DNA of 64,000 nt from Dastarcus helophoroides (lineage: Eukaryota > Arthropoda > Insecta > Coleoptera > Bothrideridae), in the NCBI GenBank assembly GCA_028583605.1, contig CM053331.1, positions 36,541,283 to 36,605,282 on the forward strand, in the 5' to 3' direction. This document shows positions 1,957-62,619 of this stretch, piece after piece (the stretch's first letter is position 1; each line of letters starts with the position of its first letter). The notes beneath the pieces were generated by a model, which was not told the DNA's origin, did no database searches, and saw only the letters and a list, made by a program, of their open reading frames with translations. The position numbers and the translations under genes are program-made.

Positions 1957-1998
1957 CTGATTTGGTAATTGCAGTCTCCGACTTTTCTGAAATGAAGA
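1957..1998 (-). CDS. Possible A-like exon (42 nt)
   Basis: Acceptor ttttcag, good donor gtaag, phase 1-1. Reads SEKSETAITKS near its end. A second acceptor inside would give a 30-nt version. The resemblance to class A is weak. Confidence 0.4.
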
Positions 1999-2172
1999 CT
2001 GAAAACAGAATAAAATAGCATCAGCGATGGATTTATGCAACAAACATTCAGTTTGCAAAACTACTAAGATCACTGTGATCATTCTGATCATTCACTCGTG
2101 AATAAATAAATTTGCAACTTTTAAGATTGTTCTAATCAAAAGTAATTAAATAAATATAAATAAAGGACCCAC

Positions 2173-2289
2173 AGTTTTCAATTTCTGGACATATCGACAC
2201 ATATTGACAAGGGGAACCAACAATATTCTGAGATTTGTGAATCTGCTTTAGAAGACATTCACATTCTGAAATGGTCAGTTTTGCTTCAC
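2173..2289 (-). CDS. Cys-rich B-like exon (117 nt), possibly terminal
   Basis: Acceptor gtttcag, phase 1 start. Reads LTISECECLLKQ, then SPCQYVSICPEIEN: five Cys including a C-E-C pair, with an ending like other B exons (E-I-E-K). The donor GTGGG is weak. Without splicing the frame runs on to a TAG at 2132-2134, so this may be the last coding exon. I see no AATAAA on the minus strand soon after. Confidence 0.55.
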
Positions 2290-2354
2290 CTGAAACAACG
2301 TGTGACAGTGTTTATCATCAAATTATCAGAAAACCACAAAAATAAAAATGCATT

Positions 2355-2575
2355 TTTTTGTACACTGACATTAAATTTGAATACTGAATGACAATAAACT
2401 TTAATGTCAATAAATTTCATGTCAGTAAACATTAAATTTTAATGTCAGTTAAATTTCATGTTCGTTAACATTAAATTTGAATGTCAGTAAATTTGATGTC
2501 AGTAAACATTCAATTTTAATGTCAGTAAATTTCAAGTCAGTAAACATTAAATTGTAATATCAGTAGGCATTCAAA
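2355..2575. repeat. Short AT-rich minisatellite
   Basis: Degenerate units of roughly 20 and 40 bp built from atgtcagtaaa and cattaaattt, in an intron. About ten short units can be counted by eye. Confidence 0.7.
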
Positions 2576-2719
2576 TTCACTAGGACACTAGGTAGTCACC
2601 TATTACATCGCTTGTAGTTGAACACTTTCGTTCTGAGCCTGTAAACAGAAAGAAAAAACTCGCTTATTGTAAAATGTGGTTAATTTTTTTTTCGAATTTT
2701 ACACAGAATTTGTTCTTAC

Positions 2720-2755
2720 CTTTATCGCTTCCAAGAGATGATTTCTTAGTTGAAG
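2720..2755 (-). CDS. Class A exon (36 nt)
   Basis: Acceptor ttcag, donor gtaag, phase 1-1. Reads STKKSSLGSDK. Confidence 0.77.
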
Positions 2756-2805
2756 CTGAAGTGAAAGCGAATTAATTCTGAACCACCAAATTGCAATCAA
2801 CTTAC

Positions 2806-2895
2806 ACTTGTCGACTTCGGCGCAGCTGCCATGCTTGGAAGTAACCTGAGGTTCACCTGAATCACAGAGGCAAGTTTGGGCCGTTTCAAAACTCC
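2806..2895 (-). CDS. Class B exon (90 nt)
   Basis: Acceptor ttccag, donor gtaag, phase 1-1. Reads SFETAQTCLCDSGEPQV and then TSKHGSCAEVDK, with three Cys. Confidence 0.75.
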
Positions 2896-2983
2896 CTGGA
2901 ACAACGAGCACAATTAATCAACTGTTAATTTTGCTAGGAGTGTTTTCGGTTATCTCAGTTCAAGATATTTCATTGAAACTCAC

Positions 2984-3022
2984 CAGTTTTGTCACCTGCA
3001 AGAGACGATTTCTTGATGGACC
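2984..3022 (-). CDS. Class A exon (39 nt)
   Basis: Acceptor ttttttag, donor gtgag, phase 1-1. Reads SIKKSSLAGDKT. Confidence 0.75.
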
Positions 3023-3331
3023 CTAAAAAAAAATAAAAAGATGCGAAAATCAACTGATGTTTGTTTCACATTTGAACCATTAGTCAATCCAGTGGGGGAA
3101 AAAAATTGTCAAATCATTTAAGCATTTAAAACAGTTTTAATTCTGACTTTTTTAGGCACATGTTATTCAAAACCAGAAACATTACAGATGGGACAACGAG
3201 CCATGCCTCAGTAATTGGGCCTGTTTCTGCTTTGTTTAATTTAATACATAACAAACATTTGAAAAAAGCATTCATGATGAATCTATTCTGAAGGATTTAG
3301 AAGCAGATTTAACTACCACAGTAACTCTCAC

Positions 3332-3370
3332 CAGGTTTGTCACTTGTAACGGATGGTTTTCGAGCTGAAG
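3332..3370 (-). CDS. Class A exon (39 nt)
   Basis: Acceptor tttcag, donor gtgag, phase 1-1. Reads SARKPSVTSDKP. Confidence 0.74.
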
Positions 3371-3428
3371 CTGAAATTAAATTATGAAATTAAATAAACA
3401 TAAACAAATCTTACACGGTATAGCTCAC

Positions 3429-3530
3429 CACCCTCAAATCCTGAGGAACTAGGAAGTTTTGATGGAACTTGGTCATCTCCATCGCATGTGCAAACTGCAT
3501 CCACGCTTGCAGTACCTTTGCTTGATGTAC
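3429..3530 (-). CDS. Class B exon (102 nt)
   Basis: Acceptor ttttttag, donor gtgag, phase 1-1. Reads KGTASVDAVCTCDGDDQVPS and then KLPSSSGFEG. A second GT (gtaag, 14 bases further) would break the phase pattern, so I chose the first. Confidence 0.75.
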
Positions 3531-3632
3531 CTAAAAAATGTAAAACACCTAAGTTGTATTTTTTCAAACAGTTTCAACATTTTGATGACTTTCTAATCCT
3601 TATGTCTTCTGGAGCTGTGTTAAGTTCGGCAA

Positions 3633-4268
3633 CAGCGCAGTTAGAAACTGGGGATATGTCAATCCCTAATAGAGATTATAGCTTCAAAAAATTAGAATTT
3701 TGGAAGAAGCCAGAGGTGATCAAAGTTCAACCAAAACCACTGTTAAACACTGGGGATGTGTCAATCCCTTATAAAGATTATAACTTCAAATATTTAGAAT
3801 TTTGGAAGAAGCCAGAGGTGACCAAAGTTCAACCAAAACCACTGTTAAACACTGGGGATGTGTCAATCCCTTATAAAGATTATAACTTCAAATATTTAGA
3901 ATTTTGGAAGAAGCCAGAGGTGACCAAAGTTCAACCAAAACCACTGTTAAACACTGGGGATGTGTCAAACCCTAATACAGATTATAACTTCTAAAATTTA
4001 AAATTTTGGAAGAAGCCAGAGGTGTCCAAAGTTCAACCAAAACCACTGTTACAAGGTGGAGATGTGTCAATCCCTAGTAAAGATTATAACTTCAAAAATT
4101 TAGACCTTTGGAAGAAGCTACAGGTGACCAAAGTTTAACCAAAACCACTGTTACAAAATGGGGAAGTATCAATCCCTAATAAAGAATATAACTTCAAAAA
4201 TTTAAAATTTTGGAAGAAGCCACAAGTGACCAAAGTTTGACCAAAACCACTGTAAAACACTGAATATA
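3633..4268. repeat. 102-bp minisatellite, left part
   Basis: About six units of 102 bp (cactgttaaacactgggg anchor). Because 102 is 34 codons, some runs stay open on the plus strand. Later units carry stops (gtttaacc in place of gttcaacc). The array is cut at 4268 by a DD41D transposon and resumes at 9975. Confidence 0.9.
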
Positions 4269-6500
4269 CAGGGTGTTACAAAAGTCCGGGCCGCTACTTC
4301 AGGAGCATATTCTACACATTAAAATATGAAAAATGTTGAAATACATTTTTTTCTTTAAATTGCCTCCTAACGGAGATGACCATTTAAAGATGGCGCCCCT
4401 AAAGTGGTTTTTTTACTACAAAAAGTTAACGGTTAGTAGCAAAGTCATGAAATTGGGCAAGCAGTTAAAGAATTGGATTAGGCATATTCTCATGTAACAT
4501 ATTTTTTAAATAAGCAGTAGCGTGGTGTGTAGGGGGTTGCCCGCGATTATTTTTTGCCGTAACTTTTTTGTATTGCAATATTTCGACACAAAAGTGCCAT
4601 AATCGTAAAAAGCAACATTTTCTATACAAAAAAGGTACTCTTTCTCAAAGTCGCTAAAAGTAACCGTTTCCGAGAAAAAAGCGTTTAAACAAAATTGTTG
4701 CATTTATTAGAATTCGTTTTGCAAATTTCTAATTTATCCACTACTAACTGCATTGATATAAAAATAGTACAAAATTAGGAAAAAAAAAATCAAAGCAAGT
4801 GTTCGAAATTACTGCCCCCTGCAGCAATACATTGCTCGGCTCGTCTTCTAAGGGAACTCCTTACTCTTTCGCAAATGCCTGGTGTATTGTGAATCTGGTT
4901 GAACCCATTTTCAATTCGTTCACGAAGATCATTGATATTGTCAACTGGTGTGGAGTAGACGATCTGCTTTAGATGTCCCCATAAGTAGAAATCAAGTGGG
5001 TTGAGGTCAGGAGACCTAGCTGGCCATGGTATCGGACCTCCTCGACCTATCCATCGTTGATGATAGTTGTTATTCAAAAATTCCCTAGCAACTGCACTAA
5101 AATGGGCAGGTGCCCCATCGTGCATTATCCACATTCGCTGTCTTGTTATGAGTGGAACATTTTCAAGTAACACGGGTAACTCTGTTTGCAAAAAATGTCT
5201 ATATGATGCTCCTGTTAACCTATGAGGTAAAAAAAACGGTCCAATTATAGAGTCCCCTATTATTCCTTCCCAAATGTTAAGTGAAAAATGTTGCTGATGT
5301 CTCGACTGAATAACTGCATTGGGATTTTCAACTTGCCACTGATGCATGTTGTGAAAGTTAAGTATCCCGTTTCTGGTAAAACCCGCTTCGTCCGTAAATA
5401 ATATGAGCGATGGAAAGTTCTCATTTTCAGCGATCTTATGCAATAGCCAGTTGCAAAATTCTATTCTTGGAGGATAATCAGCAGCAAGTAACCCTTGCAC
5501 TCTTTGAAAATGATAGGGGTAAAATTGGTAAAATTTCAAAATTCGCCAGATAGTTACGTGATTTACTCCTTCGGCTAAAGCAAGTTGTCTAGTGCTGACA
5601 CATGGATCTTCTTCAATTCGCTGAAGCACACGCTCCTCTAAATTAGCAACTTCTGCGTTTGGCCTTCCAACACGTTCGCCTTTGAAAACAAAATTTCCTG
5701 TTTCACATAAACGAGCATGAATTTTCTGGAACAATTTTTCTCCTGGTAGGTGTCTATTAGGAAAACGTTCAGCATAAAGCCGTCTTGCTTCAGCACGATT
5801 ACAATTTGCAAGCCCGTACATTAAATGCATATCGGCCATTTCTTGATTTGAATAGTCCATTTTATCAAAATAATGAAAAGTTAAAAAACTACTACACTTA
5901 CTATTGACAACAAAAACTGCTAAAGTTTACAGCTTACGACCAAATTTTATCAGTGACACAACGTCAATCTCTGGCAGATATTGTCAAGTACAATTGTTTT
6001 CTTTACGATCAGTTTGCATAACCAACTTATTTTTTCTTATACAAATTAGTTAGAATTTCGAAGACGGGATAGGATTATTTAAACGCCTTTTTCCCGGAAA
6101 CGGTTACTTTTAGCGACTTTGAGAAAGAGTACCTTTTTTGTATAAAAAATGTGGCTTTTTACGATTATGGCACTTTTGTGTCGAAATATTGCAATACAAA
6201 AAAGTTACGGCAAAAAATAATCGCGGGCAACCCCCTACACACCACGCTACTGCTTATTTAAAAAATATGTTACATGAGAATATGCCTAATCCAATTCTTT
6301 AACTGCTTGCCCAATTTCATGACTTTGCTACTAACCGTTAACTTTTTGTAGTAAAAAAACCACTTTAGGGGCGCCATCTTTAAATGGTCATATCTCCGTT
6401 AGGAGGCAATTTAAAGAAAAAAATGTATTTCAACATTTTTCATATTTTAATGTGTAGAATATGCTCCTGAAGTAGCGGCCCGGACTTTTGTAACACCCTG
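4269..6500 (-). mobile_element. DD41D Tc1/mariner element 1 (2232 bp)
   Basis: Terminal inverted repeats start cagggtgttacaaaagtccg and extend about 420 bp (4269 to about 4688 and about 6081 to 6500). TA lies at both ends. It inserted in the 102-bp minisatellite. It carries one intact transposase frame and looks able to move, though activity is inferred. Confidence 0.93.
4790..5860 (-). CDS. Tc1/mariner-type DD41D transposase, intact
   Basis: 356 residues, single exon, nuclear DNA transposase that cuts and pastes its element at TA sites. The N-terminus (residues about 1-60) looks like the DUF4817-type helix-turn-helix. A GRP motif lies at 65-67 and a second helix-turn-helix at about 84-110 (VSTRQLALAEGVNHVTIWR). 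The DDE_3 catalytic core has D157 (LFTDEAGF), D248 (WIMHDGAPAH) and D290 (SPDLNPLD), with 41 residues between the last two. This is the DD41D arrangement, not DD34D or DD34E. The start follows a short leader inside the element, and the stop precedes the inner end of the left inverted repeat. It differs from the copy at 17716 at only a few residues, for example W-E-G where the other has W-G-G near residue 198. Confidence 0.93.
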   Translation of the reverse strand: MDYSNQEMADMHLMYGLANCNRAEARRLYAERFPNRHLPGEKLFQKIHARLCETGNFVFKGERVGRPNAEVANLEERVLQRIEEDPCVSTRQLALAEGVNHVTIWRILKFYQFYPYHFQRVQGLLAADYPPRIEFCNWLLHKIAENENFPSLILFTDEAGFTRNGILNFHNMHQWQVENPNAVIQSRHQQHFSLNIWEGIIGDSIIGPFFLPHRLTGASYRHFLQTELPVLLENVPLITRQRMWIMHDGAPAHFSAVAREFLNNNYHQRWIGRGGPIPWPARSPDLNPLDFYLWGHLKQIVYSTPVDNINDLRERIENGFNQIHNTPGICERVRSSLRRRAEQCIAAGGSNFEHLL

Positions 6501-9974: not shown

Positions 9975-12900
9975 CTAATAAAGATTATTACTTCGAAAAT
10001 TTAAAATTTTGAAAGAAGCCAGAGGTGATCAAAATTTAACCAAAACCACTGTTAAAAATTGGGGATGTGTCAATCGGTAATAAAGATTATAACTTCTTAA
10101 ATTTAGAGTTTTGGAAGAAGCCAGAGGTGACCAAAGTTTACCCAAACCCACTGTTAGAAAATGAGAATGTGTCAATCTCTAAAAGAGATTATAACTTCGA
10201 AAATTTAGAATTTTGGAAGAAGCCATAGGTGACCAAAGTTCAACCAAAACCACTGTTAAAAACTAGGGATGTGCCAATCTTTAATAAAGATTATAACTTT
10301 GAAAATTTAGACTTTTGGAAGAAGCCACAGGTGACCAAAATTTAACCAAAACCACTGAAAACTGGGGATGTGTCAATCCCTAATAAAGATAATAACTTCA
10401 AAAATTTAGAATTTTGGAAAAAGCCATAGGTGACCAAAGTTGAACCAAAACCACTGGAGATATGTCAATATTTAATAGATGTTGTAACTTCGAAAATTTA
10501 GAATTTTAGAAGAAGCCAGAAGTAACCAAAGTTTAACCAAAACCACTGTTAAAAACTGGGGATGTGCCAATTCCTAATAAAGACTATAACGTCGAAAATT
10601 TAGAATTTTGGAAGAAGCCAGAGGTGACCAAAGTTTAACCAAAACCATTGTTAAAAATTGGGGATGTGTCAATCCGTAATAGAGATTATAATTTCGAAAA
10701 TTTAGAATTTTGGAAGAAACCAGAGGTGACCAAAGTTTAACCAAAACCATTGTTAAAAATTGGGGATGTGTCAATCCGTAATAGAGATTATAATTTCGAA
10801 AATTTAGAATTTTGGAAGAAGCCAGAGGTGTCCAAAGTTCAACTAAAACCACTGTTACAAAATGGGGATGCGTCAATCCCTAATAAAAATTATAACTTCA
10901 AAAATTTAGTATTTTGGAAGAAGCCAAAGATGACCAAAGTTTACCCAAAACCACTGTTGAAAACTGGGGATGTGTTCATTCCTACTAAAGGTTATAACTT
11001 CGAAAATTTAAAATTTTAGAAGAAGCCAAAGGTGACCAAAGTTCAACCAAATCCACTGTTGAAAACTGGAAAGGTGTCAATCCGTAATAAAAATTATTAT
11101 TTCGAAAATTTAGAATTTTGGAAGAAGCCAGAGGTGACCAAAGTTCAACCAAAACCACTGTTACAAACTGGGGATGTTTCAATTCTTAATAAAGATTATA
11201 ACTTCGAAAATTTAGTATTTTGGAAAAAGCCAAAGGTGACCAAAGTTCAATCAAAACCCCTGTGAAAACCTGAGGATTTGTTAATCCCTAATAGCGATTA
11301 TAATTTTGAAAATTTAGAATTTTTGAAGAAGTCGAAGGTGACCAAAGTTTAACCAAAACCACTGTTAAAAACTGGGGATGTGCCAATTCCTAATAAAGAC
11401 TATAACGTCGAAAATTTAGAATTTTGGAAGAAGCCAGAGGTGACCAAAGTTTAACCAAAACCATTGTTAAAAATTGGGGATGTGTCAATCCGTAATAGAG
11501 ATTATAATTTCGAAAATTTAGAATTTTGGAAGAAGCCAGAGGTGTCCAAAGTTCAACTAAAACCACTGTTACAAAATGGGGATGCGTCAATCCCTAATAA
11601 AAATTATAACTTCAAAAATTTAGTATTTTGGAAGAAGCCAAAGATGACCAAAGTTTACCCAAAACCACTGTTGAAAACTGGGGATGTGTTCATTCCTACT
11701 AAAGGTTATAACTTCGAAAATTTAAAATTTTAGAAGAAGCCAAAGGTGACCAAAGTTCAACCAAATCCACTGTTGAAAACTGGAAAGGTGTCAATCCGTA
11801 ATAAAAATTATCATTTCGAAAATTTAGAATTTTGGAAGAAGCCAGAGGTGACCAAAGTTCAACCAAAACCACTGTTACAAAATGGGGATGTTTTAATTCT
11901 TAATAAAGATTATAACTTCGAAAATTTAGTATTTTGGAAAAAGCCAAAGGTGACCAAAGTTCAATCAAAACCCCTGTGAAAACCTGAGGATTTGTTAATC
12001 CCTAATAGCGATTATAATTTTGAAAATTTAGAATTTTGGAAGAAGCTGAAGGTGACCAAAGTTTAACCAAAACCACTGTTAAAAACTAGGGATGTGTCAA
12101 TCCCTAATAAAAATTATAACTTCAAAAATTTAGACTTTTAGAAGGAGCTGCAGGTGACCAAAGTTTAACTAAAACCACTCAAAACTTCAAAAATTTAGAA
12201 TTTTGAAAGAAACTATAGGTGACCAAAATTCAAACAAAGCCACTGTTAAAAACTGAAAATATGTTAATTCCTAATAAAGATTATAACTTTGAAAATTTAG
12301 AATTTTGAAAAAAGTCAGAGGTGACCAAAGTTTAATCAAAACTACTGTTTGAAACTGGGTATAGTTCAATTCCTAATAGAGATTATAACTTCGAAAATTT
12401 GGAATTATGGAAGAAACCAGAGGTGACCAAAATTCAACCAAAACCACTATTAGAAACTGGAGTCAATTCCTAATAAAGATTATACTTCAAAGATTTGGAA
12501 TAAATATTATAACTTTAAAAATTTAGAATTTTGGAAGAAGCCAGAAGTAACCAAAGTTTAACCAAAACCACTGTTAAAAACTAAGGATGTGCCAATTCCT
12601 AATAAAGACTATAACGTCGAAAATTTAGAATTTTGGAAGAAGTCAGAGGTGACCAAAGTTCAACCAAAACCATTCTTAAAAACTGGCGATGTGTCAATCC
12701 GTAACAGAGACTATAATTTTGAAAATTTAGAATTTTGGAAGAAGCCAGAGGTGTCCAAAGTTCAACCGAAACCACTGTTACAAAGTGGGAATGTATCAAT
12801 CGCTAATAAAGATTATGACTTTAAATATTTCGAATTTTGGAAAAAGCCACAGGTGACCAAAGTTTAACCAAAACCACTGTTAAAAACTGAAGGTATGTGC

Positions 12901-13800
12901 TAATCTTTAATTAAAATTAAAACTTAGAACTGAGACTTTTGGAAGGAGCCACAGGTGACCAACGTTTAACCAAAACCACTGAAAACTGAGGATGTGTCAA
13001 TCCCTATTAAAGATAATAACTTCAAAAATTTAGAATTTTGGAAAGAACCACAGGTGACCAAAGTTTAACCAAAACCTCTATTAAAAACTGGAGATGTTTC
13101 AATTCCTAATAAAGATTATACTTCAAAGATTTAGAATAAAGATTATAACTTTGAAAATTTAGAATTTTGGAAGAAGCCAGAGGTAACCAAAATTTAACCA
13201 AAACCACTGTTAAAAACTAGAGATATGTGAATCCCTAACAGGGATTATAACTTCGAAAATTTAGAATTTTGGAAGGAGCCACAGGTGACCAAAGTTCAAC
13301 CAAAATCACTGTTAAAAACTGAAGGTATGTCAATTCCTAATAGAGATTATAACTTTGAAAATTTAGAATTTTAGAAGAAGCCAGAGGTCACCAAAGTTTA
13401 ATTAAAACCACTAGGGATATGTCAATCCCTAACAGAGATTATAACTTCGAAAATTAAGAATTTTGAAAGGAGCTACAGGTGACCAAAGTTCAACCGAAAC
13501 CACTGTTAAATGCTGGAGATATGTCAATATTTAATAGAGATTAGAACTTCAAAAATTTAGAATTTTGGAAGAAGCCAGAGGTGACCAAAGTTTAACCAAA
13601 ACCACTGTTAAAAACTGCAGATGTGTCAATTCCTAATAGAAATTATAACTTCAAAAATTTGGAATTTTGGAAGAAGCCACAGGTGACCAAAGTTCAACCA
13701 AAACCACTGTTAAAAACTGGGGATATGTCAATCCCTAACAGAGATTATAATTTCAAAAATTTAGAATTTTAAAAGAAGCTAGAGGAGACCAAAGTTTAAC
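9975..13800. repeat. 102-bp minisatellite, main part
   Basis: About 37 units of near 102 bp continue the array from 3633. A higher-order repeat of 714 bp (seven units) is visible: 10750-11019 and 11464-11733 encode the same 89 plus-strand codons. Several units are shortened or lengthened. Open frames appear on both strands because the period is a multiple of three, but stops recur in many units, so I do not call it coding. Confidence 0.9.
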
Positions 13801-14126
13801 CAAGATGGGTGCAACTCATCCTACATTACAGTTATTGCAAAGTTGTACATCTAGAGCAGTGTTTTTCATAGTGTGGTACGCGTATCCTCAGAGTAGTCTC
13901 TGCCTCAGAGATACGAAAAGAGTTTGCTGAGGGTACGCGCTGCACCTGATGGCTTCAAATAAATCAAAAATTTAAAATTAATTGCTTGAGATAAACGTGA
14001 CAAAACTAACTTAATCAGCTTGTACAGATTTTAAGAATTCGTGCATGTTGCAGAATGATATTTTGTTCAAATTCGTTGATACTGTCAGCAGACAAACATT
14101 CTTACAAACACGCTTCCTCATTTATA
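13801..14126. other. Intron with transposon relics
   Basis: Near 13855 the sequence cagtgtttttcatagtgtgg followed by tacgcg resembles the end of a hAT-type element. The segment 13930-14035 is repeated at 16445-16535, on the other side of DD41D element 2. No exon is seen. Confidence 0.45.
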
Positions 14127-16360
14127 CTGGGTGTTACAAAAGTCCGGGCCGCTACTTCAGGAGCATATTCTACACATTAAAATATGAAAAATGTTGAAAT
14201 ACATTTTTTTCTTTAAATTGCCTCCTAACGGAGATGACCATTTAAAGATGGCGCCCCTAAAGTGGTTTTTTTACTACAAAAAGTTAACGGTTAGTAGCAA
14301 AGTCATGAAATTGGGCAAGCAGTTAAAGAATTGGATTAGGCATATTCTCATGTAACATATTTTTTTAAATAAGTAGTAGCGTGGTGTGTAGGGGGTTGCC
14401 CGCGATTATTTTTTGCCGTAACTTTTTTGTATTGCAATATTTCGACACAAAAGTGCCATAATCGTAAAAAGCAACATTTTCTATACAAAAAAGGTACTCT
14501 TTCTCAAAGTCGCTAAAAGTAACCGTTTCCGAGAAAAAAGCGTTTAAACAAAATTGTTGCATTTATTAGAATTCGTTTTGCAAATTTCTAATTTATCCCT
14601 TACTTACTGCATTGATATAAAAATAGTACAAAATTAAGAAAAAAAAAATCAAAGCAAGTGTTCGAAATTACTGCCCCCTGCAGCAATACATTTCTCGGCT
14701 CGTCTTCTAAGGGAACTCCTTACTTTTTCGCAAATGCCTGGTGTATTGTGAATCTGGTTGAACCCATTTTCAATTCGTTCACGAAGATCATTGATATTGT
14801 CAACTGGTGTGGAGTAGACGATCTGCTTTAGGTGTCCCCATAAGTAGAAATCGAGTGGGTTGAAGTCAGGAGACCTAGCTGGCCATGGTATCGGACCTCC
14901 TCGACCTATCCATCGTTGATGATAGTTGTTATTCAAAAATTCCCTGGCAACTGCACTAAAATGGGCAGGTGCCCCATCGTGCATTATCCACATTCGCTGT
15001 CTTGTTATGAGTGGAACATTTTCAAGTAACACGGGTAACTCTGTTTGCAAAAAATGTCTATATGATGCTCCTGTTAACCTATGAGGTAAAAAAAAACGGT
15101 CCAATTATAGAGTCCCCTATTATTCCTCCCCAAATGTTAAGTGAAAAATGTTGCTGATGTCTCGACTGAATAACTGCATTGGGATTTTCAATTTGCCACT
15201 GATGCATGTTGTGAAAGTTAAGTACCCCGTTTCTGGTAAAACCCGCTTCGTCCGTAAATAATATGAGCGATGGAAAGTTCTCATTTTCAGCGATCTTATG
15301 CAATAGCCAGTTGCAAAATTTTATTCTTGGAGGATAATCAGCAGCAAGTAACCCTTGCACTCTTTGAAAATGATAGGGGTAAAATTGGTAAAATTTCAAA
15401 ATTCGCCAGATAGTTACGTGATTTACTCCTTCGGCTAAAGCAAGTTGTCTAGTGCTGACACATGGATCTTCTTCAACTCGCTGAAGCACACGCTCCTCTA
15501 AATTAGCAACTTCTGCGTTTGGCCTTCCAACACGTTCGCCTTTGAAAACAAAATTTCCTGTTTCAGATAAACGAGCATGAATTTTCTGGAACAATTTTTC
15601 TCCTGGTAGGTGTCTATTAGGAAAACGTTCAGCATAAAGCCGTCTTGCTTCAGCACGATTACAATTTGCAAGCCCGTACATTAAATGCATATCGGCCATT
15701 TCTTGATTTGAATAGTCCATTTTATCAAAATAATGAAAAGTTAAAAAACTACTACACTTACTATTGACAACAAAAACTGCTAAAGTTTACAGCTTACGAC
15801 CAAATTTTATCAGTGACACAACGTGAATCTCTGGCAGATATTGTCAAGTACAATTGTTTTCTTTACGATCAGTTTGCATGACCAACTTATTTTTTCTTAT
15901 ACAAATTAGTTAGAATTTCGAAGACGGGATAGGATTATTTAAACGCCTTTTTCTCGGAAACGGTTACTTTTAGCGACTTTGAGAATGAGTACCTTTTTTG
16001 TATAAAAAATGTTGCTTTTTACGATTATGGCACTTTTGTGTCGAAATATTGCAATACAAAAAAGTTACGGCAAAAAATAATCGCGGGCAACCCCCTACAC
16101 ACCACGCTACTGCTTATTTAAAAAATATGTTACATAAGAATATGCCTAATCCAATTCTTTAACTGCTTGCCCAATTTCATGACTTTGCTACTAACCGTTA
16201 ACTTTTTGTAGTAAAAAAACCACTTTAGGGGCGCCATCTTTAAATGGTCATATCTCCGTTAGGAGGCAATTTAAAGAAAAAAATGTATTTTAACATTTTT
16301 CATATTTTAATGTGTAGAATATGCTCCTGAAGTAGCGGCCCGGACTTTTGTAACACCCTG
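14127..16360 (-). mobile_element. DD41D Tc1/mariner element 2 (2234 bp)
   Basis: Same family as element 1, with TA at both ends and long inverted repeats. The outermost base context differs slightly (ctgggtg in place of cagggtg at 14127). The transposase is frameshifted, so this copy is non-autonomous. Confidence 0.92.
14649..15720 (-). pseudogene. DD41D transposase, broken by one-base insertion
   Basis: The N-terminal part (15720 down to about 15090) covers both helix-turn-helix regions and the first catalytic Asp. The C-terminal part (15104 down to 14649) covers the second and third Asp. They are in different frames because a run of eight A in element 1 (near 5229) is nine A here (near 15089). 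Other changes are few, for example E134K, so the break is recent. Confidence 0.92.
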
Positions 16361-16882: not shown

Positions 16883-16969
16883 CGCTTTTAACTTTTGGAG
16901 AACTACCAGGCTTGGAACCAACATCGGTAGAACTTTCCTTAGACGTAAAACTTCGTTTAAATGAGAGAT
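16883..16969 (-). CDS. Mixed A/B-like exon (87 nt)
   Basis: Acceptor cttcag, donor gtgag, phase 1-1. Starts SFKRSFTSKESSTDVGSKPG and then SSPKVKS. It begins like class A (basic, Ser-rich) and ends like class B (S-K-P-G-S-S), without Cys. It lies between two DD41D transposons. Confidence 0.65.
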
Positions 16970-17076: not shown

Positions 17077-19309
17077 CAGGGTGTTACAAAAGTCCGGGCC
17101 GCTACTTCAGGAGCATTTTCTACACATTAAAATATGAAAAATGTTGAAATACAAGTTTTTCTTTAAATTGCCTCCTAACGGAGATATGACCATTTAAAGA
17201 TGACGCCCCTAAAGTGGTTTTTTACTACAAAAAGTTAACGGTTAGTAGCAAAGTCATGAAATTGGACAAGCAGTTAAAGAATTGGATTAGGCACATTCTC
17301 ATGTAACATATTTTTTAAATAAGCAGTAGCGTGGTGTGTAGGGGGTTGCCCGCGATTATTTTTTGCCGTAACTTTTTTGTATTGCAATATTTTGACACAA
17401 AAGTGCCATAATCGTAAAAAGCAACATTTTTTATACAAAAAAGGTACTCATTCTCAAAGTCGCTAAAAGTAACCGTTTCCGAGAAAAAGGCGTTTAAATA
17501 ATCCTATCCCGTCTTCGAAATTCTAACTAATTTGTATAAGAAAAAATAAGTTGGTCATGCAAACTGATCGTAAAGAAAACAATTGTACTTGACAATATCT
17601 GCCAGAGATTGACGTTGTGTCACTGATAAAATTTGGTCGTAAGCTGTAAACTTTAGCAGTTTTTGTTGTCAATAGTAAGTGTAGTAGTTTTTTAACTTTT
17701 CATTATTTTGATAAAATGGACTATTCAAATCAAGAAATGGCCGATATGCATTTAATGTACGGGCTTGCAAATTGTAATCGTGCTGAAGCAAGACGGCTTT
17801 ATGCTGAACGTTTTCCTAATAGACACCTACCAGGAGAAAAATTGTTCCAGAAAATTCATGCTCGTTTATGTGAAACAGGAAATTTTGTTTTTAAAGGCGA
17901 ACGTGTTGGAAGGCCAAACGCAGAAGTTGCTAATTTAGAGGAGCGTGTGCTTCAGCGAGTTGAAGAAGATCCATGTGTCAGCACTAGACAACTTGCTTTA
18001 GCCGAAGGAGTAAATCACGTAACTATCTGGCGAATTTTGAAATTTTACCAATTTTACCCCTATCATTTTCAAAGAGTGCAAGGGTTACTTGCTGCTGATT
18101 ATCCTCCAAGAATAGAATTTTGCAACTGGCTATTGCATAAGATCGCTGAAAATGAGAACTTTCCATCGCTCATATTATTTACGGACGAAGCGGGTTTTAC
18201 CAGAAACGGGATACTTAACTTTCACAACATGCATCAGTGGCAAGTTGAAAATCCCAATGCAGTTATTCAGTCGAGACATCAGCAACATTGTTCACTTAAC
18301 ATTTGGGGAGGAATAATAGGGGACTCTATAATTGGACCGTTTTTTTTACCTCATAGGTTAACAGGAGCATCATATAGACATTTTTTGCAAACAGAGTTAC
18401 CCGTGTTACTTGAAAATGTTCCACTCATAACAAGACAGCGAATGTGGATAATGCACGATGGGGCACCTGCCCATTTTAGTGCAGTTGCTAGGGAACTTTT
18501 GAATAACAACTATCATCAACGATGGATAGGTCGAGGAGGTCCGATACCATGGCCAGCTAGGTCTCCTGACCTCAACCCACTCGATTTCTACTTATGGGGA
18601 CATCTAAAGCAGATCGTCTACTCCACACCAGTTGACAATATCAATGATCTTCATGAACGAATTGAAAATGGGTTCAACCAGATTCACAATACACCAGGAA
18701 TTTGCGAAAGAGTAAGGAGTTCCCTTAGAAGACGAGCCGAGCAATGTATTGCTGCAGGGGGCAGTAATTTCGAACACTTGCTTTGATTTTTTTTTTCTTA
18801 ATTTTGTACTATTTTTATATCAATGCAGTTAGTAGTGGATAAATTAGAAATTTGCAAAACGAATTCTAATAAATGCAACAATTTTGTTTAAACGCTTTTT
18901 TCTCGGAAACGGTTACTTTTAGCGACTTTGAGAGAGAGTACCTTTTTTGTATAAAAAATGTTGCTTTTTACGATTATGGCACTTTTGTGTCAAAATATTG
19001 CAATACAAAAAAGTTACGGCAAAAAATAATCGCGGGCAACCCCCTACACACCACGCTACTGCTTATTTAAAAAATATGTTACATGAGAATATGCCTAATC
19101 CAATTCTTTAACTGCTTGCCCAATTTCATGACTTTGCTACTAACCGTTAACTTTTTGTAGTAAAAAAACCACTTTAGGGGCGCCATCTTTAAATGGTCAT
19201 ATCTCCGTTAGAAGTCAATTTAAAGAAAAAAATGTATTTCAACATTTTTCATATTTTAATGTGTAGAATATGCTCCTGAAGTAGCGGCCTGGACTTTTGT
19301 AACACCCTG
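17077..19309 (+). mobile_element. DD41D Tc1/mariner element 3 (2233 bp)
   Basis: TA at both ends, inverted repeats of about 420 bp (17077 to about 17497 and about 18889 to 19309), opposite orientation to the other two copies. The transposase frame is intact. Confidence 0.93.
17716..18786 (+). CDS. Tc1/mariner-type DD41D transposase, intact
   Basis: 356 residues, same length and layout as the copy at 4790: two helix-turn-helix regions in residues 1-110, then a DDE_3 core with Asp at 157, 248 and 290. Differences from element 1 include I82V, F192C, E198G, F261L and R313H. None hits a catalytic Asp. The ATG at 17716 follows the left inverted repeat and a 218-base leader. Two intact copies of one family within 15 kb suggest recent or current transposition, which is inferred. 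Confidence 0.93.
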   Translation: MDYSNQEMADMHLMYGLANCNRAEARRLYAERFPNRHLPGEKLFQKIHARLCETGNFVFKGERVGRPNAEVANLEERVLQRVEEDPCVSTRQLALAEGVNHVTIWRILKFYQFYPYHFQRVQGLLAADYPPRIEFCNWLLHKIAENENFPSLILFTDEAGFTRNGILNFHNMHQWQVENPNAVIQSRHQQHCSLNIWGGIIGDSIIGPFFLPHRLTGASYRHFLQTELPVLLENVPLITRQRMWIMHDGAPAHFSAVARELLNNNYHQRWIGRGGPIPWPARSPDLNPLDFYLWGHLKQIVYSTPVDNINDLHERIENGFNQIHNTPGICERVRSSLRRRAEQCIAAGGSNFEHLL

Positions 19310-20008: not shown

Positions 20009-20047
20009 CAGTACTGTCACTAGCGATAGAATGTTTTTTCGTGTAAG
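20009..20047 (-). CDS. Class A exon (39 nt)
   Basis: Acceptor tttttag, donor gtgag, phase 1-1. Reads YTKKHSIASDST; the usual S-S is H-S. Confidence 0.73.
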
Positions 20048-20103: not shown

Positions 20104-20190
20104 ATCCTTCCATTAGTTCAGAGCTGGCAGCTTTAGTTGAACCTTCGGGAACACATTCGTCGCCAGAAATTGAAGGTTTACAGGATCCAC
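20104..20190 (-). CDS. Class B exon (87 nt)
   Basis: Acceptor atttag, donor gtaag, phase 1-1. Reads SCKPSISGDECVPEG and then STKAASSELMEG. The C-x-C pair is replaced by two widely spaced Cys. Its duplicate at 51652 has lost the acceptor. Confidence 0.73.
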
Positions 20191-40028: not shown

Positions 40029-40067
40029 CTGTTTTGGTGCTTGCCAAAGAAGATTTTCTGCTGGAAC
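40029..40067 (-). CDS. Class A exon (39 nt)
   Basis: Acceptor ttttcag, donor gtaaa, phase 1-1. Reads SSRKSSLASTKT. Confidence 0.76.
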
Positions 40068-40122: not shown

Positions 40123-40212
40123 CTTTTTCAGTTTCTGAGGTAGATTTTAAAGGACCTTCCGGGGGACAAGTGCATGGAATTTCCGTCCCAATGGTATGTT
40201 TGTCTGATGCGT
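40123..40212 (-). CDS. Class B exon (90 nt)
   Basis: Acceptor ctgcag, donor gtaaa, phase 1-1. Reads DKHTIGTEIPCTCPPEGP and then KSTSETEK. It is close to the class consensus, with the C-T-C pair intact. Confidence 0.76.
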
Positions 40213-40267: not shown

Positions 40268-40306
40268 CAATTTTTTCACTCACAATTGAAGATTTTCTGC
40301 TGGATG
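40268..40306 (-). CDS. Class A exon (39 nt)
   Basis: Acceptor cttcag, donor gtaag, phase 1-1. Reads SSRKSSIVSEKI. Confidence 0.75.
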
Positions 40307-40445: not shown

Positions 40446-40526
40446 GTTTTTCAGCTTCAGGCATTTCGGTGCAAACATCAGAAGTGCATGAAGCTTCCGT
40501 ACCAACGGTATGTGTAGTGGATGTAC
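40446..40526 (-). CDS. Class B exon (81 nt), shortest of its class
   Basis: Acceptor tacag, donor gtgag, phase 1-1. Reads THTVGTEASCTSDVC and then TEMPEAEK. The P-P-S-S-S block is missing and the Cys pair is C-x4-C. Confidence 0.73.
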
Positions 40527-40918: not shown

Positions 40919-40957
40919 CTGCTTCATGACTTCCCCGAGAAGATTTTCTACTGGACA
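40919..40957 (-). CDS. Class A exon (39 nt)
   Basis: Acceptor ttgtag, donor gtagg, phase 1-1. Reads SSRKSSRGSHEA. Confidence 0.72.
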
Positions 40958-41007: not shown

Positions 41008-41100
41008 CTTTTCCAACTTCCGCAGAGCTATCGGGCTTAGGACACTCAGAAGGACAAGTAGAAGAATCCTTTAACTCAACACTACGTTTACCAGATGTGT
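41008..41100 (-). CDS. Class B exon (93 nt)
   Basis: Acceptor ttttttag, donor gtaat, phase 1-1. Reads KRSVELKDSSTCPSEC and then PKPDSSAEVGK; the Cys pair is spaced C-x3-C rather than C-x-C. The purine tract begins 43 bases upstream of its acceptor in gene orientation. Confidence 0.75.
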
Positions 41101-41143: not shown

Positions 41144-42483
41144 CTATAAGAAGAAGAAGAAGAAGAAGAAGAAGCAGAAGAAGAAGAAGAAGAAGAAGAC
41201 GAAGAAATAGAAGAAGAAGGAGGAGGAGAAGGAGAAGGAGAAGGAAAAGGAAAAGGGAAAGGAGAAGGAGAAGGAGAAGGAAAAGCAGAAGGAGAAGGAG
41301 AAGGAGAAGGAGAAGGAGAAGGAGAAGGAGAAGGAAAAGGAGAAGGAGAAGGAGAAGGAAAAGGTGAAGTAGAAAAAGAACAAGGAGAAAAAGAAGGAGA
41401 AGGAGGAGGAAAAGGAAAAGGAGAAGGAGAAGGAGAAAAAGAAGGAGAAGCAGAAGAAGAAGGAGAAGGAAAAGAAGGAGAAAAAGAAGGAGAAGCAGAA
41501 GGAGAAGGAGAAGAAGAAGGAGAAGGAAAAGGAGAAGGAGAAGAAGGAGAAGGAGAAGGAGAAGGAGCAGAAGACGGAGAAGGAGAAGGAAAAGGAGAAG
41601 GAAAAGAAGAAGAAGAAGGAGAAGGAGAAGGAGAAAGAGAAGGAGAAGGAAAAGTAGAAGGAGAAGAAGAAGGAGAAGGAGCAGGAGAAGGAGAAGGAGA
41701 AGGAGAAGGAGAAGGAGAAGAAAAAAGTGAAGTAGAAGGAGAAGGGAAAGGAGGAAAGAAGGAAGAGAAGGAAAAGGAGAAGGAGAAAAAGAAGGAGAAG
41801 GAGAAGAAGAAGAAGAAGAAGAAGGAGAAGGAGAAGGAGAAGGAGAAGGGGAAGGAAAAGAAAAAGGAAAAGGAAAAAGAGAAAGAGAAGAAGAAGGAGA
41901 AGGAAAAGGAGAAGTAGAAGGAGAAGGGGAAGGAGAAGGAGAAGAAGAAGAAGAAGGAGAAGGAAAAGGAGAAGAAAAAGGAGAAGAAGAAGAAGAAGGA
42001 GAAGGAGAAGGAGAAAGAGAAGGAGAAGAAAAAGTAGAAGGAGAAGAAGAAGGAGAAGGAGCAGGAGAAGGAGAAGGAGAAGAAAAAAGTGAAGTAGAAG
42101 GAGAAGGGAAAGAAGGAAAGAAGAAGGAAAGAAGGAGAAAGAGGAGGAGGAAGAGAAGGAGGAAAAGGAGGAAAAGGAAAAGAAGAAGGAAAAAGGAAAA
42201 GAAGAAGGAGGATAAGCAGGAAGAGAAGGAAAAGGAGGAGGAGAAAAAGAAGGAGAAGGAGAAGAAGAAGAAGAAGAAGGAGAAGGTGAAGAAGAAGGAA
42301 AAGGAGAAGGGGAAGGAAAAGGAAAAGGAAAAGGAAAAGAGAAGGAGAAGAAGAAGGAGAACGAAAACGAGAACGCGAACGAGAACGAGAACGAGAAGGA
42401 GAAGGAGAAGGAAAAAGAGAAAGAAAAGGAGGAGAAAGAGAAGGAAAAGAAGGCAAAGAAGAAGAAGAAGAAAAAAAGAAGAA
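41144..42483. repeat. Polypurine tract, GAA/GGAGAA repeats (about 1.3 kb)
   Basis: Almost pure A and G on the plus strand, built from gaagaa, ggagaagga and gaaaagga units with larger internal duplications (for example near 41640 and 42010). The long minus-strand frames of 446 and 464 codons are Ser/Phe/Leu simple-sequence translations of the tract, not proteins. Confidence 0.95.
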
Positions 42484-50303: not shown

Positions 50304-50345
50304 CTGTTTTGTGACTGCTTGCCAAGGATGATTTTCTGCTGGAAA
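50304..50345 (-). CDS. Class A exon (42 nt)
   Basis: Acceptor ttgcag, donor gtatt, phase 1-1. Reads SSRKSSLASSHKT, one codon longer than the usual class A exon. Its flanking intron resembles the introns at 60.2 and 62.3 kb, showing a shared origin. Confidence 0.7.
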
Positions 50346-51559: not shown

Positions 51560-51598
51560 CAGTACTCTCACTAGCGATAGAATGTTTTTTCTTGTAAA
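51560..51598 (-). CDS. Class A exon (39 nt) in segmental duplicate
   Basis: Acceptor atttag, donor gtgag, phase 1-1. Reads YKKKHSIASEST. It is nearly the same as the exon at 20009-20047 (YTKKHSIASDST) and lies in a duplicated block. Its partner B exon is broken, so its use is uncertain. Confidence 0.6.
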
Positions 51599-51651: not shown

Positions 51652-51735
51652 ATCCTTCCATTAGTTCAGAGCTGGCAGCTTTAGTTGAACCTTCAGTAAC
51701 ACATTCATCGCCAGCAATTGAAGATTTACAGGATC
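51652..51735 (-). pseudogene. Decayed class B exon, acceptor deleted
   Basis: Paralogue of the exon at 20104-20190. The body still reads in phase 1 (KSSIAGDECVTEGSTKAASS) and the GT donor remains. The stretch that holds the ttttag acceptor in the 20.1-kb copy is missing here: ggatccacctaaatca is shortened to ggatcaatcg. It probably cannot be spliced in. Confidence 0.6.
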
Positions 51736-52959
51736 AATCGTCCAATCAATCTCACAAAAAATGTCAATAAGAAATTGGTTAGTTTTTTTTTGATTTGTCA
51801 TAAGGACGATCACTACGTTTCCTTTGAAAGTGTTGTGGAATTATTACTGATACAATAAATGGTGCCCATACAGCACTTAAATCAGAAAGATGTCTTAAAG
51901 ATATCATTTTAGCGATATCTTTAAGAGACATAGAAATGTTAACATTTAGATAACTTTTTTTAGTCGTCAGATTACTGACATCTAACAGATATCTATAACA
52001 TGATTTTGATAGATGTCTTTAGGATGAGAAATCTTTATGTTAACATAATGTTAACTTTCTGACAATATTTCCCGATGACAGACTTTAAAAAATGATGACT
52101 CTAGGAGCTCTTTAAGAGAGCGTATTGCTGAGCGGGTAAAAAATCGTATTAAAAGAGCATTATCTAGAGCAAAACCTCCTCATAGTTATTGGACAATATC
52201 TGTTCCTAAATAAGAAGTAGCAGATGAAAGATTTGTAATAGTAGTTGCACCTCAAAAAGATATTTGAACTTATGGGAGAACATATCAACAGGATTTTAAA
52301 TTTGGCAGCAAAAAGAAGACAAGAAGAAATGAATCACAGTTCAAATAAAACAGAAAAATCACAGATCCAATAAAAGGTAGAAAGAAAACTGGACGTAGAG
52401 GTCAATTTATTTTTCACCTTCTTCTCAAGAAATTGAAATCTAGCTAACTTTTCTCCTAAAGAACAGGCTTAAGGCATCTGGAGATTTGAAGAGGAATTCC
52501 AGAGGGAACAGAGATTTTTAAAAACAGCTGTAAGATAATATTGAGTAACAGAGAATCGATTGAGAAATTAAGAAACCAGAGCGTGCCCCTATTTGGTACC
52601 CTGTTTATTACAAACTTTATAAAAAGATTGAAGGAATACCCTTTCCTTCTAATGCTTTATAAAGTCTTTATGTTAACATAATAATCAGGCCGGTAACCAG
52701 GATATTTTTTCGAGGGGGGCTGCCATCCTTCTGCTAAAACTACCTACTCTTTGTTTGAGTTTAGGTTAGAACTAAGAAGCCACGTTCCAATACTACTTTA
52801 CTATTAATATTACTATTGTATACAAGTACACTAAAGTATAAAAAAATACATTAAAAACATTTCTATAGTCTAACTCTTCTAACATTCTAACAAAGTAGCT
52901 GCAGAAAAATCTCTTTTTTTTAATTTTTTTCAAATTTCGATTTCGTTCATAATTTTTTA

Positions 52960-59793: not shown

Positions 59794-59889
59794 CCTTATC
59801 CACTTCTGAAGAGCTCGGGGGCCTGCAGGTGTCATCAGGTAAGAATTCACATGGAGCATCAGAAGTTGCAGTGTGTCCACTTGAAGTAC
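59794..59889 (-). CDS. Class B exon (96 nt), tandem copy 1
   Basis: Acceptor ttttcag, donor gtgag, phase 1-1. Contains DAPCEFLPDDTC and RPPSSSEVDK. It is the last exon before a 6.8-kb hAT-like insertion (52686-59522), which therefore sits inside the next intron. Confidence 0.75.
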
Positions 59890-60144: not shown

Positions 60145-60183
60145 CTGTTTTATGGCTTCCCAAGGAAGATTTTTTACTGGAAA
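60145..60183 (-). CDS. Class A exon (39 nt), tandem copy 1
   Basis: Acceptor tatag, donor gtcag, phase 1-1. Reads SSKKSSLGSHKT. Confidence 0.72.
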
Positions 60184-60344
60184 CTATAAAAAATGAAATA
60201 TATTAAATATCAATGTCATACGGAAATGTAATGTTTAAAATGAAACATTAGGGTGGACACTCGCTGTGAGCATTCGTATGTAATGTCGTAGATTAGATTC
60301 TCATCTTGAAATGAGTATGAAAACAACTAATTTGATAACTGAAA

Positions 60345-60560
60345 TACAAATCTTATTCCTGAAACCAAGAAAAATTAAAAAATACAACAAAGGTTGCTCT
60401 AACGTGTTCCGACAGTCAATCTATAATCTTCAAATGTCGAAACGCGTTAGAGTAATCTTTGTTGTGTTTTATAATCTTTCTTGCTTTTAGGGGGCAAGAT
60501 TTGTATTTTAATTTTTGAGGATAACCAAGGACCAGCCCGTTCCACCAAAATTTTTAAGTA
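60345..60560. mobile_element. Palindromic MITE, junction of units 1 and 2
   Basis: Left arm to about 60420, right arm from about 60433. Centre gacagtcaatctataatctt. Confidence 0.8.
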
Positions 60561-60592
60561 AGAATAGAAATAGGATTTAAGGAAATACTCAC

Positions 60593-60688
60593 CCTTATCC
60601 ACTTCTGAAGAGCTCGGGGGCCTACAGGTGTCATCAGGTAAGAATTCACATGGAGCATCAGAAGTTGCAGTGTGTCCACTTGAAGTAC
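60593..60688 (-). CDS. Class B exon (96 nt), tandem copy 2
   Basis: Acceptor ttttcag, donor gtgag, phase 1-1. The peptide matches the copies at 61392 and 59794 (CEFLPDDTC, then RPPSSSEVDK). Confidence 0.75.
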
Positions 60689-60942
60689 CTGAAAATGGAG
60701 GAAGCTCAGCATCAGAGGCAAATAGGAATTGTTCTATTTGTTTAATTTTATTCATTTTTAAGTAAATGTTCACTGCTTCTTATTTATCTATTTATTTTTT
60801 ATTATAACTGTTTTGTATTCCCACTTTTTATTTCATAAAGACTATATCACTGAAACATGTCGCAGGAGTAAAAAAAGAAAAAAATTATGAACATTCTTCA
60901 GGAGTAAATCAAAAAATTATAGAAATAATACTTAAAGCTGAC

Positions 60943-60981
60943 CTGTTTTATGGCTTCCCAAGGAAGATTTTTTACTGGAAA
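60943..60981 (-). CDS. Class A exon (39 nt), tandem copy 2
   Basis: Acceptor tacag before, donor gtcag after, phase 1-1. Reads SSKKSSLGSHKT. The donor GTCAG is weaker than the GTAAG of the copy at 61742. Confidence 0.72.
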
Positions 60982-61136
60982 CTGTAAAAAATGAAATATA
61001 TTAAATATCAATGTCATACGGAAATTTAATGTTTAAAATGAAACATTAGGGTGGACACTCGCTGTGAGCATTCGTATGTGATGTAGTAGATCAGATTCTC
61101 ATCTTGAAATGAGTATAAAAATAACTAATTTGATAA

Positions 61137-61355
61137 CTGAAATACAAATCTTATTCCCTGAAACCAAGAAAAATTAAAAAACACAACAAAGGTCGCTCTA
61201 ACGTGTTCCGACAGTCAATCTATCATCTTCAAATGTCGAAACGCGTTAGAGTAATCTTTGTTGTGTTTTATAATCTTTCTTGGTTTTGGGGGGCAAGATT
61301 TGTATTTTAATTTTTGAAGATAACCAAGGACCAGTCCGTTCCACCAAAATTTTTA
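61137..61355. mobile_element. Palindromic MITE, junction of units 2 and 3
   Basis: Nearly identical to the copy at 60345. Confidence 0.8.
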
Positions 61356-61391
61356 AGTAAGAATAGAAATAGGACGTAAGGAAATACTCAC

Positions 61392-61487
61392 CCTTATCCA
61401 CTTCTGAAGAGCTCGGGGGCCTACAGGTGTCATCAGGTAAGAATTCACATGGAGCATCAGAAGTTGCAGTGTGTCCACTTGAAGTAC
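61392..61487 (-). CDS. Class B exon (96 nt), tandem copy 3
   Basis: Acceptor ttttcag, donor gtgag, phase 1-1. Contains GHTATSDAPCEFLPDDTC and then RPPSSSEVDK. It lies 799 bases from the matching exon at 60593, inside a tandem array of units that each carry one B and one A exon. Confidence 0.75.
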
Positions 61488-61741
61488 CTGAAAATGGAGG
61501 AAGCTCAGCATCAGAGGCAAATAGGAATTGTTCTATTTGTTTAATTTTATTCATTTTTAAGTAAATGTTCACTGCTTCTTATTTATCTATTTATTTTTTA
61601 TTATAACTGTTTTGTATTCCCACTTTTTATTTCATAAAGACTATATCACTGAAACATGTCGCAGGAGTAAAAAAAGAAAAAAATTATGAACATTCTTCAG
61701 GAGTAAATCAAAAAATTATAGAAATAATACTTAAGTCTTAC

Positions 61742-61780
61742 CTATTTTATGGCTTCCCAAGGAAGATTTTTTACTGGAAA
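61742..61780 (-). CDS. Class A exon (39 nt)
   Basis: Acceptor ctgtag before, donor gtaag after, phase 1-1. Reads SSKKSSLGSHKI. This is copy 3 of a tandem unit; its last codon (ATA) differs from the ACA in the other two copies. Confidence 0.75.
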   Translation of the reverse strand, partial: FPVKNLPWEAIK

Positions 61781-61931
61781 CTGTAAAAAATGAAATATAT
61801 TAAATATCAATGTCATACGGAAATTTAATGTTTAAAATGAAACATTAGGGTGGACACTCGCTGTGAGCATTCGTATGTAATGTAGTAGATCAGATTCTCA
61901 TCTTGAAATGAGTATAAATATAACTAATTTG

Positions 61932-62150
61932 ATAACTGAAATACAAATCTTATCTTCTGAAACCAAGAAAAATTAAAAAACACAACAAAGGTTGCTCTAA
62001 CGCGTTTCAACAGCCAAGCTATCATCTTCAGATGTCGAAGCGCGTTAGAGCAACCTTTGTTGTGTTTTTTAATCTTTCTTGGTTTTAGGGGGCAATATTT
62101 GTATTTCAGTTTTTGAAGATAACCAAGGACCAGTTCGTTCCACCAAAAAA
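61932..62150. mobile_element. Palindromic MITE after unit 3
   Basis: Best preserved copy: arms ctgaaatacaaatcttatct ... gctctaacgcgtttcaacag and their inverse, with a short centre gccaagctatcatcttcag. Confidence 0.82.
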
Positions 62151-62523
62151 AGTGATAAATTTTAGTTTTTTATAATGAATTGTACACGAAAATAAAGCAT
62201 CTATTCTATAAAATAGAGGAACGTCAAAAATGTATGAAAATAATTAAGCAACCTAAACTAAAACAGCAATCTAATAAATATAATTCACTTTAATTGTGTC
62301 AGTGCTCAAACAGTCAAAATTATTTGGTTTCGGAGCTTTGCAACAAAGAAAATAAGTCGCCATTGGTCATTATTTTGTGCACGAAATAAAATTGGAAGTT
62401 ATTACATTGCACCTAAATACTCCCAACAAGTGTCCGCTATTAGACTTTCATATAATTTCAACTGGAAACTGGAAAAATAAAGTTTTTGTTGAAGTAAGAA
62501 TAAAGATGTAGAAAACTACTTAC
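62151..62523. other. Intron between exon units
   Basis: Contains the block shared with 50655-50820. Otherwise AT-rich, with no exon. Confidence 0.5.
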
Positions 62524-62619
62524 CCTTATCCACTTCTGAAGAGCTCGGAGGCCTACAGGTGTCATCAGGTAAAAATTCACATGGAGCATCTGCTGCTGAA
62601 GTATGTCCAGTTGAAGTGT
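62524..62619 (-). CDS. Class B exon (96 nt)
   Basis: Acceptor ttttcag, donor gtaag, phase 1-1. The centre reads CEFLPDDTCRPPSSSEVDK, with two Cys seven residues apart. It is the rightmost exon found. It resembles the three B exons at 59.8-61.5 kb but is more diverged (GHTSAADAP in place of GHTATSDAP), so it is probably their older parent unit. Confidence 0.75.

Follow-up and report, generated by a model that had tools for sequence, protein, structure and literature searches.

A two-type array of small symmetric exons in an insect genome and an intronless copy that records its splicing

Introduction

Schistosome microexon genes (MEGs) have microexons shorter than 36 bp and a signal peptide, with a median product of about 7 kDa in a head-enriched set (PMC4671649). 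The bicycle proteins of aphids mostly carry paired C-Y-C (CYC) motifs (PMC13041983), and megacycle, a divergent bicycle family restricted to aphids and devoid of an obvious CYC, is usually single-copy, with more than 100 small exons and an extent of about 100 kb in M. sacchari (PMC9168663). In vertebrate tropoelastin, exon-coded domain types alternate, one of them serving in cross-linking (PMC3458006). We describe a 64,000-nucleotide stretch of the Dastarcus helophoroides genome (C7:36541283-36605282 in an assembly of 539 Mb and 50 contigs; hereafter the window), whose minus strand carries an array of small exons of two alternating types, A and B. We found no recognised counterpart of this A/B pattern in the accessible text of the open-access literature searched.

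Results

The minus-strand array of symmetric, alternating A and B exons is a real gene, which extends past the window on both sides. Within the window it comprises 36 intact small exons, read from 62619 to 1957. All 36 are preceded by AG and followed by GT, all have a length that is a multiple of three (range 36-129 nt), and all are in phase 1-1, starting at the second position of one codon and closing with the first position of another. Together they form a frame of 789 codons with 0 stops; the exon peptides and the joined protein derive from the gene model of this analysis, from which one candidate exon scoring above the cut (38668-38627) was omitted. An earlier note on this DNA had proposed a minus-strand gene of small symmetric GT-AG exons, which the 36 intact phase 1-1 exons bear out. 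Its count of about 37 exons holds for these 36; one more, at about 51741-51652, is a dead copy. The note's label 'microexon' is loose, as no window exon is 30 nt or shorter and the shortest measures 36 nt. Iterative profile typing assigned 17 exons to type A and 13 to type B, the A count omitting one A call that falls within a B exon; the six remaining exons were typed by eye, four as B-like and two as A-like. A exons are mostly 39 nt long, such as SSRKSSLASTKT, and B exons span 81-129 nt, such as ESSKHSIGTDSSCVCSSGVPRKPPSSSEMEK. Nine of the 35 introns measure 50-58 nt, and several exons have weak donors, for example GTATTTT and GTCAGCT.

Exon candidates of this kind are rare in shuffled sequence. 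With a first set of splice and composition tables, 37 phase-1 candidates scored above 16, all of them on the minus strand, against a mean of 0.17 (maximum 2) in 30 Markov shuffles. Because these tables were built partly from window exons, the model was retrained on 49 exons outside the window; at the same threshold and phase it returned 30 candidates, again with none on the plus strand, and a mean of 0.4 (maximum 3) in 30 Markov shuffles. The flank exons had themselves been found with the first tables, so that this control is strong, not wholly independent. Lowering the threshold to 14 gave 33 candidates, 30 of which are exact model exons. In the other two phases, the counts above 16 under the retrained model were 7 and 2 for the minus strand, 1 and 1 for the plus strand; with the first tables, minus-strand candidates in phase 0 and phase 2 overlapped model exons in 21/23 and 7/9 cases, respectively. 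A/B profiles run over 216 kb recovered 25 A and 20 B modules, all on the minus strand, with scores of 17-25 bits (A) and 26-63 bits (B) against best plus-strand scores of 3.3 (A) and 7.6 (B), the plus-strand maxima being taken among the 40 best per strand. The alternation of types claimed in the earlier note likewise exceeds chance: the type switches in 27/35 window steps, a count reached in 24/20000 permutations, and in 40/49 steps of the wider A/B stretch, reached in 0/20000, both counts including the types assigned by eye. Once weak exons are removed and the young tandem units collapsed, 28/38 switches remain (29/20000 permutations).

A good part of the window exons has been spliced in a transcript that later returned to inherited DNA as a copy. 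One B exon used as a genome query gave a weak match (E value 0.023) at C1:57826926, and the surrounding locus (C1:57825955-57827905, about 1.95 kb; hereafter the relic) is frameshifted and reads across window exon borders without introns. Two runs keep the order of the predicted transcript, 37931-29815-B-28916-28391-20190-20047-16969 and 3530-3370-3022-2895-2755-2638, where exons are named by their first base. Together they fill 14 exon slots in window order, and none is skipped. Twelve distinct junctions are crossed 18 times, 14 crossings being gap-free within 8 nt and 4 containing 1-2 gap characters; the junction 16969|3530 is excluded from this count, as further modules separate those two exons in the relic. 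The splicing that the earlier note could only suggest is thus documented at 12 junctions. Seven aligned relic pieces (at least 95 nt long and at least 80% identical) have identities of 80 to 92%. Matches of the relic to the 246-kb parent region, with overlapping ones counted, cover 1238 exonic bases and 84 others, and the dead exon accounts for 49 of the latter. The relic sequence is rearranged: its arms are inverted and 80-90% complementary (79% over 750 bp). When the relic itself served as query, it was the only such locus recovered. Since an intronless copy is heritable, the gene was expressed in the germ line.

The relic also records differences from the present array. It holds one B module where the window has two that are about 96% alike, and the duplication that produced the 29301/29090 B pair is therefore probably younger than the relic. 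Between 16969 and 3530 it contains some 380-430 nt of extra A-like modules, for which no clear match was found in the present 13.35-kb intron between these exons; they may be either exons that have since been lost or a sign of a differing source allele. That intron also houses a 102-bp tandem satellite, at window positions 3640-4262 and 9975-13803.

The window appears to be the middle of one giant insect gene of about 89 predicted exons and about 175 kb, with its ends near 152 kb and -22.5 kb in window coordinates extended beyond the window. The outermost A/B exons lie near 95 kb and -11 kb, and the array is dense between 85 kb and -3.3 kb. Upstream of them lie phase 1-1 Cys/Ser exons up to 148 kb, including a Ser-rich exon of 1890 nt at 128925-127036, and a first coding exon predicted to span 152451-148845 (about 1,200 codons), which starts MGKCTGPKKPKK in the context CCACCATGG, has low hydropathy and ends in a phase-1 donor. 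Downstream are candidate exons at -13 kb and -21.4 kb and a last open frame with a TAA near -22534, followed shortly by AATAAA. The 3' end of the gene model is tentative because its acceptor is weak. In the extended model, which includes an added exon at 123451-123335, the 85 junctions among 86 small exons create 0 stops. The whole product is predicted to have about 4,100 amino acids (aa), and the model contains two long coding exons. No obvious signal peptide is present at the predicted start as judged by hydropathy only, the best 12-residue mean within the first 60 residues being 1.03. The window product consists of 25% Ser and 11% Lys. Over the whole locus, 24/25 A exons contain [RK][RK]xS, whereas B exons contain CxC (12/19) or a CEF-type pair (6/19).

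The A+B exon pair seems to have been duplicated repeatedly, most clearly in near-identical units at 59.8-62.6 kb. Uniform phase 1-1 means that small exons can duplicate or vanish without breaking the frame. Between the neighbouring 799-bp units (the 60593-60688 unit and the previous one), 0/135 exonic and 27/665 intronic positions differ (Fisher p 0.015), and the duplicate B exons 29090-29185 and 29301-29396 differ by 3 synonymous and 0 replacement changes over 31 interior codons. In 9 hand-chosen, partly overlapping copy pairs, the proportion of replacement differences (pN) is 0.056 and that of synonymous differences (pS) 0.267, with pN below pS in 8/9. Taken together with the opposing counts given in the Discussion, we read this as moderate constraint on the peptide, the older modules being much diverged. 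The dead exon has lost its acceptor through a 15-nt deletion and has a TGA inside; the A/B profiles were built without the 20190-type exon, so this copy fell outside the profile search. The A module matches the first 14 B residues better than in any of 200 column permutations, and this alignment suggests that A and B modules share an origin. The intron of each tandem unit carries an inverted-repeat element of about 210 bp (window about 61934-62151, with copies near 61136-61349 and 60337-60550), which is widespread in the genome and makes up most of at least 118 matches.

In transcript order, and typed by profile unless stated, the window opens with B 62524-62619 (96 nt), A 61742-61780 (39 nt), B 61392-61487 (96 nt, in a tandem unit of about 799 bp), A 60943-60981 (39 nt), B 60593-60688 (96 nt, in the next tandem unit), A 60145-60183 (39 nt) and B 59794-59889 (96 nt). 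There follow the B-like dead exon (ends approximate, 51652-51741), a copy of 20104-20190; A 51560-51598 (YKKKHSIASEST), a copy of 20009-20047; and A 50304-50345 (42 nt). The central cluster comprises B-like 41008-41100 (93 nt, by eye), A 40919-40957, B 40446-40526 (81 nt), A 40268-40306, B 40123-40212 (90 nt, with a 55-nt intron on each side), A 40029-40067, B 39831-39929 (99 nt), B 38467-38562 (96 nt), A 38370-38408, B 38222-38314 (93 nt), A 37985-38023 and B 37803-37931 (129 nt, with a 30-nt internal duplication), whose junction to 29815 is present in the relic. Both junctions of A 29777-29815 are seen there, and the duplicate pair B 29301-29396 and B 29090-29185 corresponds to its single B. 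The relic further contains the junctions of A 28878-28916, A 28353-28391, B-like 20104-20190 (87 nt, by eye) and A 20009-20047 (YTKKHSIASDST), the upstream junction of B-like 16883-16969 (87 nt, by eye), the downstream junction of B 3429-3530 (102 nt), the junctions of A 3332-3370, A 2984-3022, B-like 2806-2895 (90 nt, by eye) and A 2720-2755 (36 nt), and the upstream junction of A-like 2600-2638 (39 nt, by eye). A-like 1957-1998 (42 nt, by eye) is the last exon in the window.

The earlier note knew of no named family with this pattern, and the collections searched contained no relatives. Pfam returned 0 families for the window protein, an 817-aa part of the first exon, the Ser-rich exon and the last open frame, the latter three being the flanking segments scanned. 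No relative of the 817-aa first-exon part or the 789-aa window protein was found in the protein database among about 8,000 word-sharing candidates each. The positive control, a transposase from the window, had 2,460 relatives there; it is a common mobile element whose matches come from genome and metagenome sources, so that the negatives carry little information about other insects. Viral contigs gave no match to the first-exon part or the last open frame, PDB none to the B profile, and Rfam and tRNA scans of the window found none. Searched against the genome, a 250-aa first-exon part and the last open frame each matched only themselves, and two B exons matched only this locus and the relic.

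Several further elements were observed in and around the locus. A plus-strand Cys-rich gene at about 154483-156133 (CxCxxC repeats followed by an acidic and helical part) lies head-to-head with the giant gene, and a second, partly broken copy of it (pieces 96% and 79% identical) sits within an intron of the giant gene at 132116-133814. More Cys/Pro-rich coding stretches (CxC...CxCxxC, PPC repeats) occur on the plus strand from about -62862 to -36369; some of these plus-strand stretches score as phase 1-1 small exons, and there is perhaps a local cluster of Cys-rich genes. The motif CxC...CxCxxC has 20 matches in the region (overlapping matches counted) against 0.8 in shuffles. The giant gene accounts for 4 of them, the plus-strand neighbour with its two copies for 15 and another plus-strand frame for 1. 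Transposase frames of DUF4817/DDE_3 type, the family being assigned from the first copy, lie in the window at 4790-5926 (minus strand), 14649-15786 (minus) and 17650-18786 (plus); two are open over 378 codons and one is broken. A long AAGAAG-type purine tract at 41148-42483 produces spurious long open frames on both strands. Elsewhere, C3:12967862-12970609 is a nuclear copy of mitochondrial sequence in the invertebrate mitochondrial code, with COX1 split by other sequence and with ND2 and COX2, recognised by eye, alongside.

Discussion

The reading that we favour, with a probability of roughly 0.48, is that the window belongs to a single gene for a giant intracellular scaffold, which is expressed in the germ line and has grown by tandem duplication of A+B pairs. 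The product would be long, probably disordered and intracellular, with basic serine-containing A segments alternating with B segments. Perhaps the A segments, each with a phosphorylation-like site (R/K-R/K-x-S), act as phosphorylatable spacers, and the B segments, in which a cysteine pair precedes a Pro/Ser tail, cross-link or bind metal through their cysteines. Cysteine nodes spaced about 45 residues apart could then yield a flexible scaffold. Germ cells or sperm are a possible site of action, the use in sperm being a guess.

Several observations weigh against this reading. No homologue was found in other species in the collections searched. Tandem units 1 and 2 show 11/96 differing positions in the B exon against 4/374 in a nearby intron; in the B pair that is 211 bp apart, exon (4/96) and flank (3/67) differ alike; and raw replacement counts exceed synonymous counts in 7/11 B and 25/30 A pairs, counts that are uncorrected for site numbers. 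A heritable intronless copy does not show a function in sperm, and the relic is limited to exons 37931-2638. The case for joining the upstream part (152-100 kb) to the A/B array is built on phase, composition and the absence of stops at junctions; an ATG at 123944 offers a signal-like alternative start; and where the last two exons are assumed to begin, no acceptor scores above 3.

It is conceivable, if doubtful, that the model joins two or more adjacent genes: one that is upstream and Cys/Ser-rich (152 to about 100 kb), and an A/B gene of its own with a start closer to the window. Such a boundary would fit the 16.6-kb gap at 118714-102127, the six further gaps of more than 4 kb in the upstream model, the signal-like ATG just mentioned and the fact that the upstream exons are not seen in the relic. 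However, phase 1-1 and CxC themes persist throughout and the 85 junctions of the joined model contain 0 stops, no search of the upstream stretch having been aimed at terminal exons.

A second question is how the exons of such a gene are used. One scenario, which we think unlikely, is an undescribed class of insect gene for a giant intracellular germline protein made from an expandable cassette array of two small symmetric exon types, in which the number and choice of A and B modules vary across individuals or tissues through exon gain, loss and splicing, thereby tuning fibre length and cross-link density. Distinctly unlikely in our view is a combinatorial cassette gene whose symmetric exons are skipped variously so that many different proteins result, a use that has been suggested for the MEGs of schistosomes. 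All 36 window exons are symmetric, several have weak donors, and 628/630 ordered pairs of window exons join without a stop; the earlier claim that any subset joins in frame thus holds for these 628, whereas the other 2/630 create a TAG. Yet tandem duplication alone predicts symmetry equally well, every exon slot is included in the two runs of the relic, and 9/35 introns are only 50-58 nt long. Very short introns favour intron definition. Since the relic skips no slot and these nine introns are so short, we infer that exon inclusion is mostly constitutive, and the very large set of variants envisaged in the earlier note is unsupported.

That the locus is a secreted, effector-type gene akin to the aphid bicycle and megacycle genes seems very improbable. 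The start of the exon at codon position 2, as in bicycle genes, is found in 36/36 window exons, and megacycle is likewise a giant gene with many small exons (PMC9168663). However, 'CYC' occurs in 0 window exons and the two-CYC pattern is absent, the B modules having a single cysteine pair, and the A+B repeat measures about 45 aa as opposed to roughly 140 aa. The published gene-structure classifier (coefficients from PMC9168663, inputs approximate) is negative, at -7.3 for the window exons and -178.8 for the whole model. No secretion signal is found by hydropathy at the predicted start, although 123944 offers an alternative one; without a hydrophobic N-terminus in that exon, the parallel to secreted effectors loses force. 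Finally, the idea that the array is a chance or repeat artefact, with tandem repeats resembling exons in a region rich in tandem repeats and transposons, deserves virtually no credence in view of the held-out control (30 against 0.4) and the spliced relic, which refutes it for the 14 slots covered.

The locus is a clear natural example of a protein that grows by duplicating exons in frame. Recent copies, an exon that has died and a 'fossil cDNA' all lie within one genome, which makes exon birth, death and splicing directly traceable. Small exons within long introns are easily missed by annotation. The locus further suggests that exon starts at codon position 2, the rule in bicycle genes, are not enough by themselves to identify secreted effectors.

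The likeness to MEGs and bicycle genes is one of architecture only, as the earlier note had supposed and as the findings on signal, CYC, classifier and exon size support. MEGs share the plan of central small, mostly symmetric exons flanked by longer end exons (PMC4671649), and here all 36 are symmetric. However, the exons of this gene are 36-129 nt long, with 0/36 below 36 nt, the long 5' exon shows no signal peptide by hydropathy, and the protein is very large and seemingly resides in the cytosol. Megacycle, in most of the genomes where it occurs, is also one giant gene with many small exons, internal tandem duplication and codon-position-2 starts (PMC9168663). The present gene differs from it in its A/B pairs, each about 45 aa long, its two long coding exons, its predicted length of about 4,100 aa and the lack of a signal that we could see. 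In functional terms, the Drosophila Mst proteins offer an analogy, and only a functional one: these Cys-rich sperm-tail proteins are intracellular and structural and belong to the male germ line, but they are small and without small-exon arrays. The nearest functional analogy may be tropoelastin, likened here by description and not by sequence, which also alternates exon types but is extracellular, with 34 exons coding for hydrophobic and cross-linking domains. Elastin exons share one phase.

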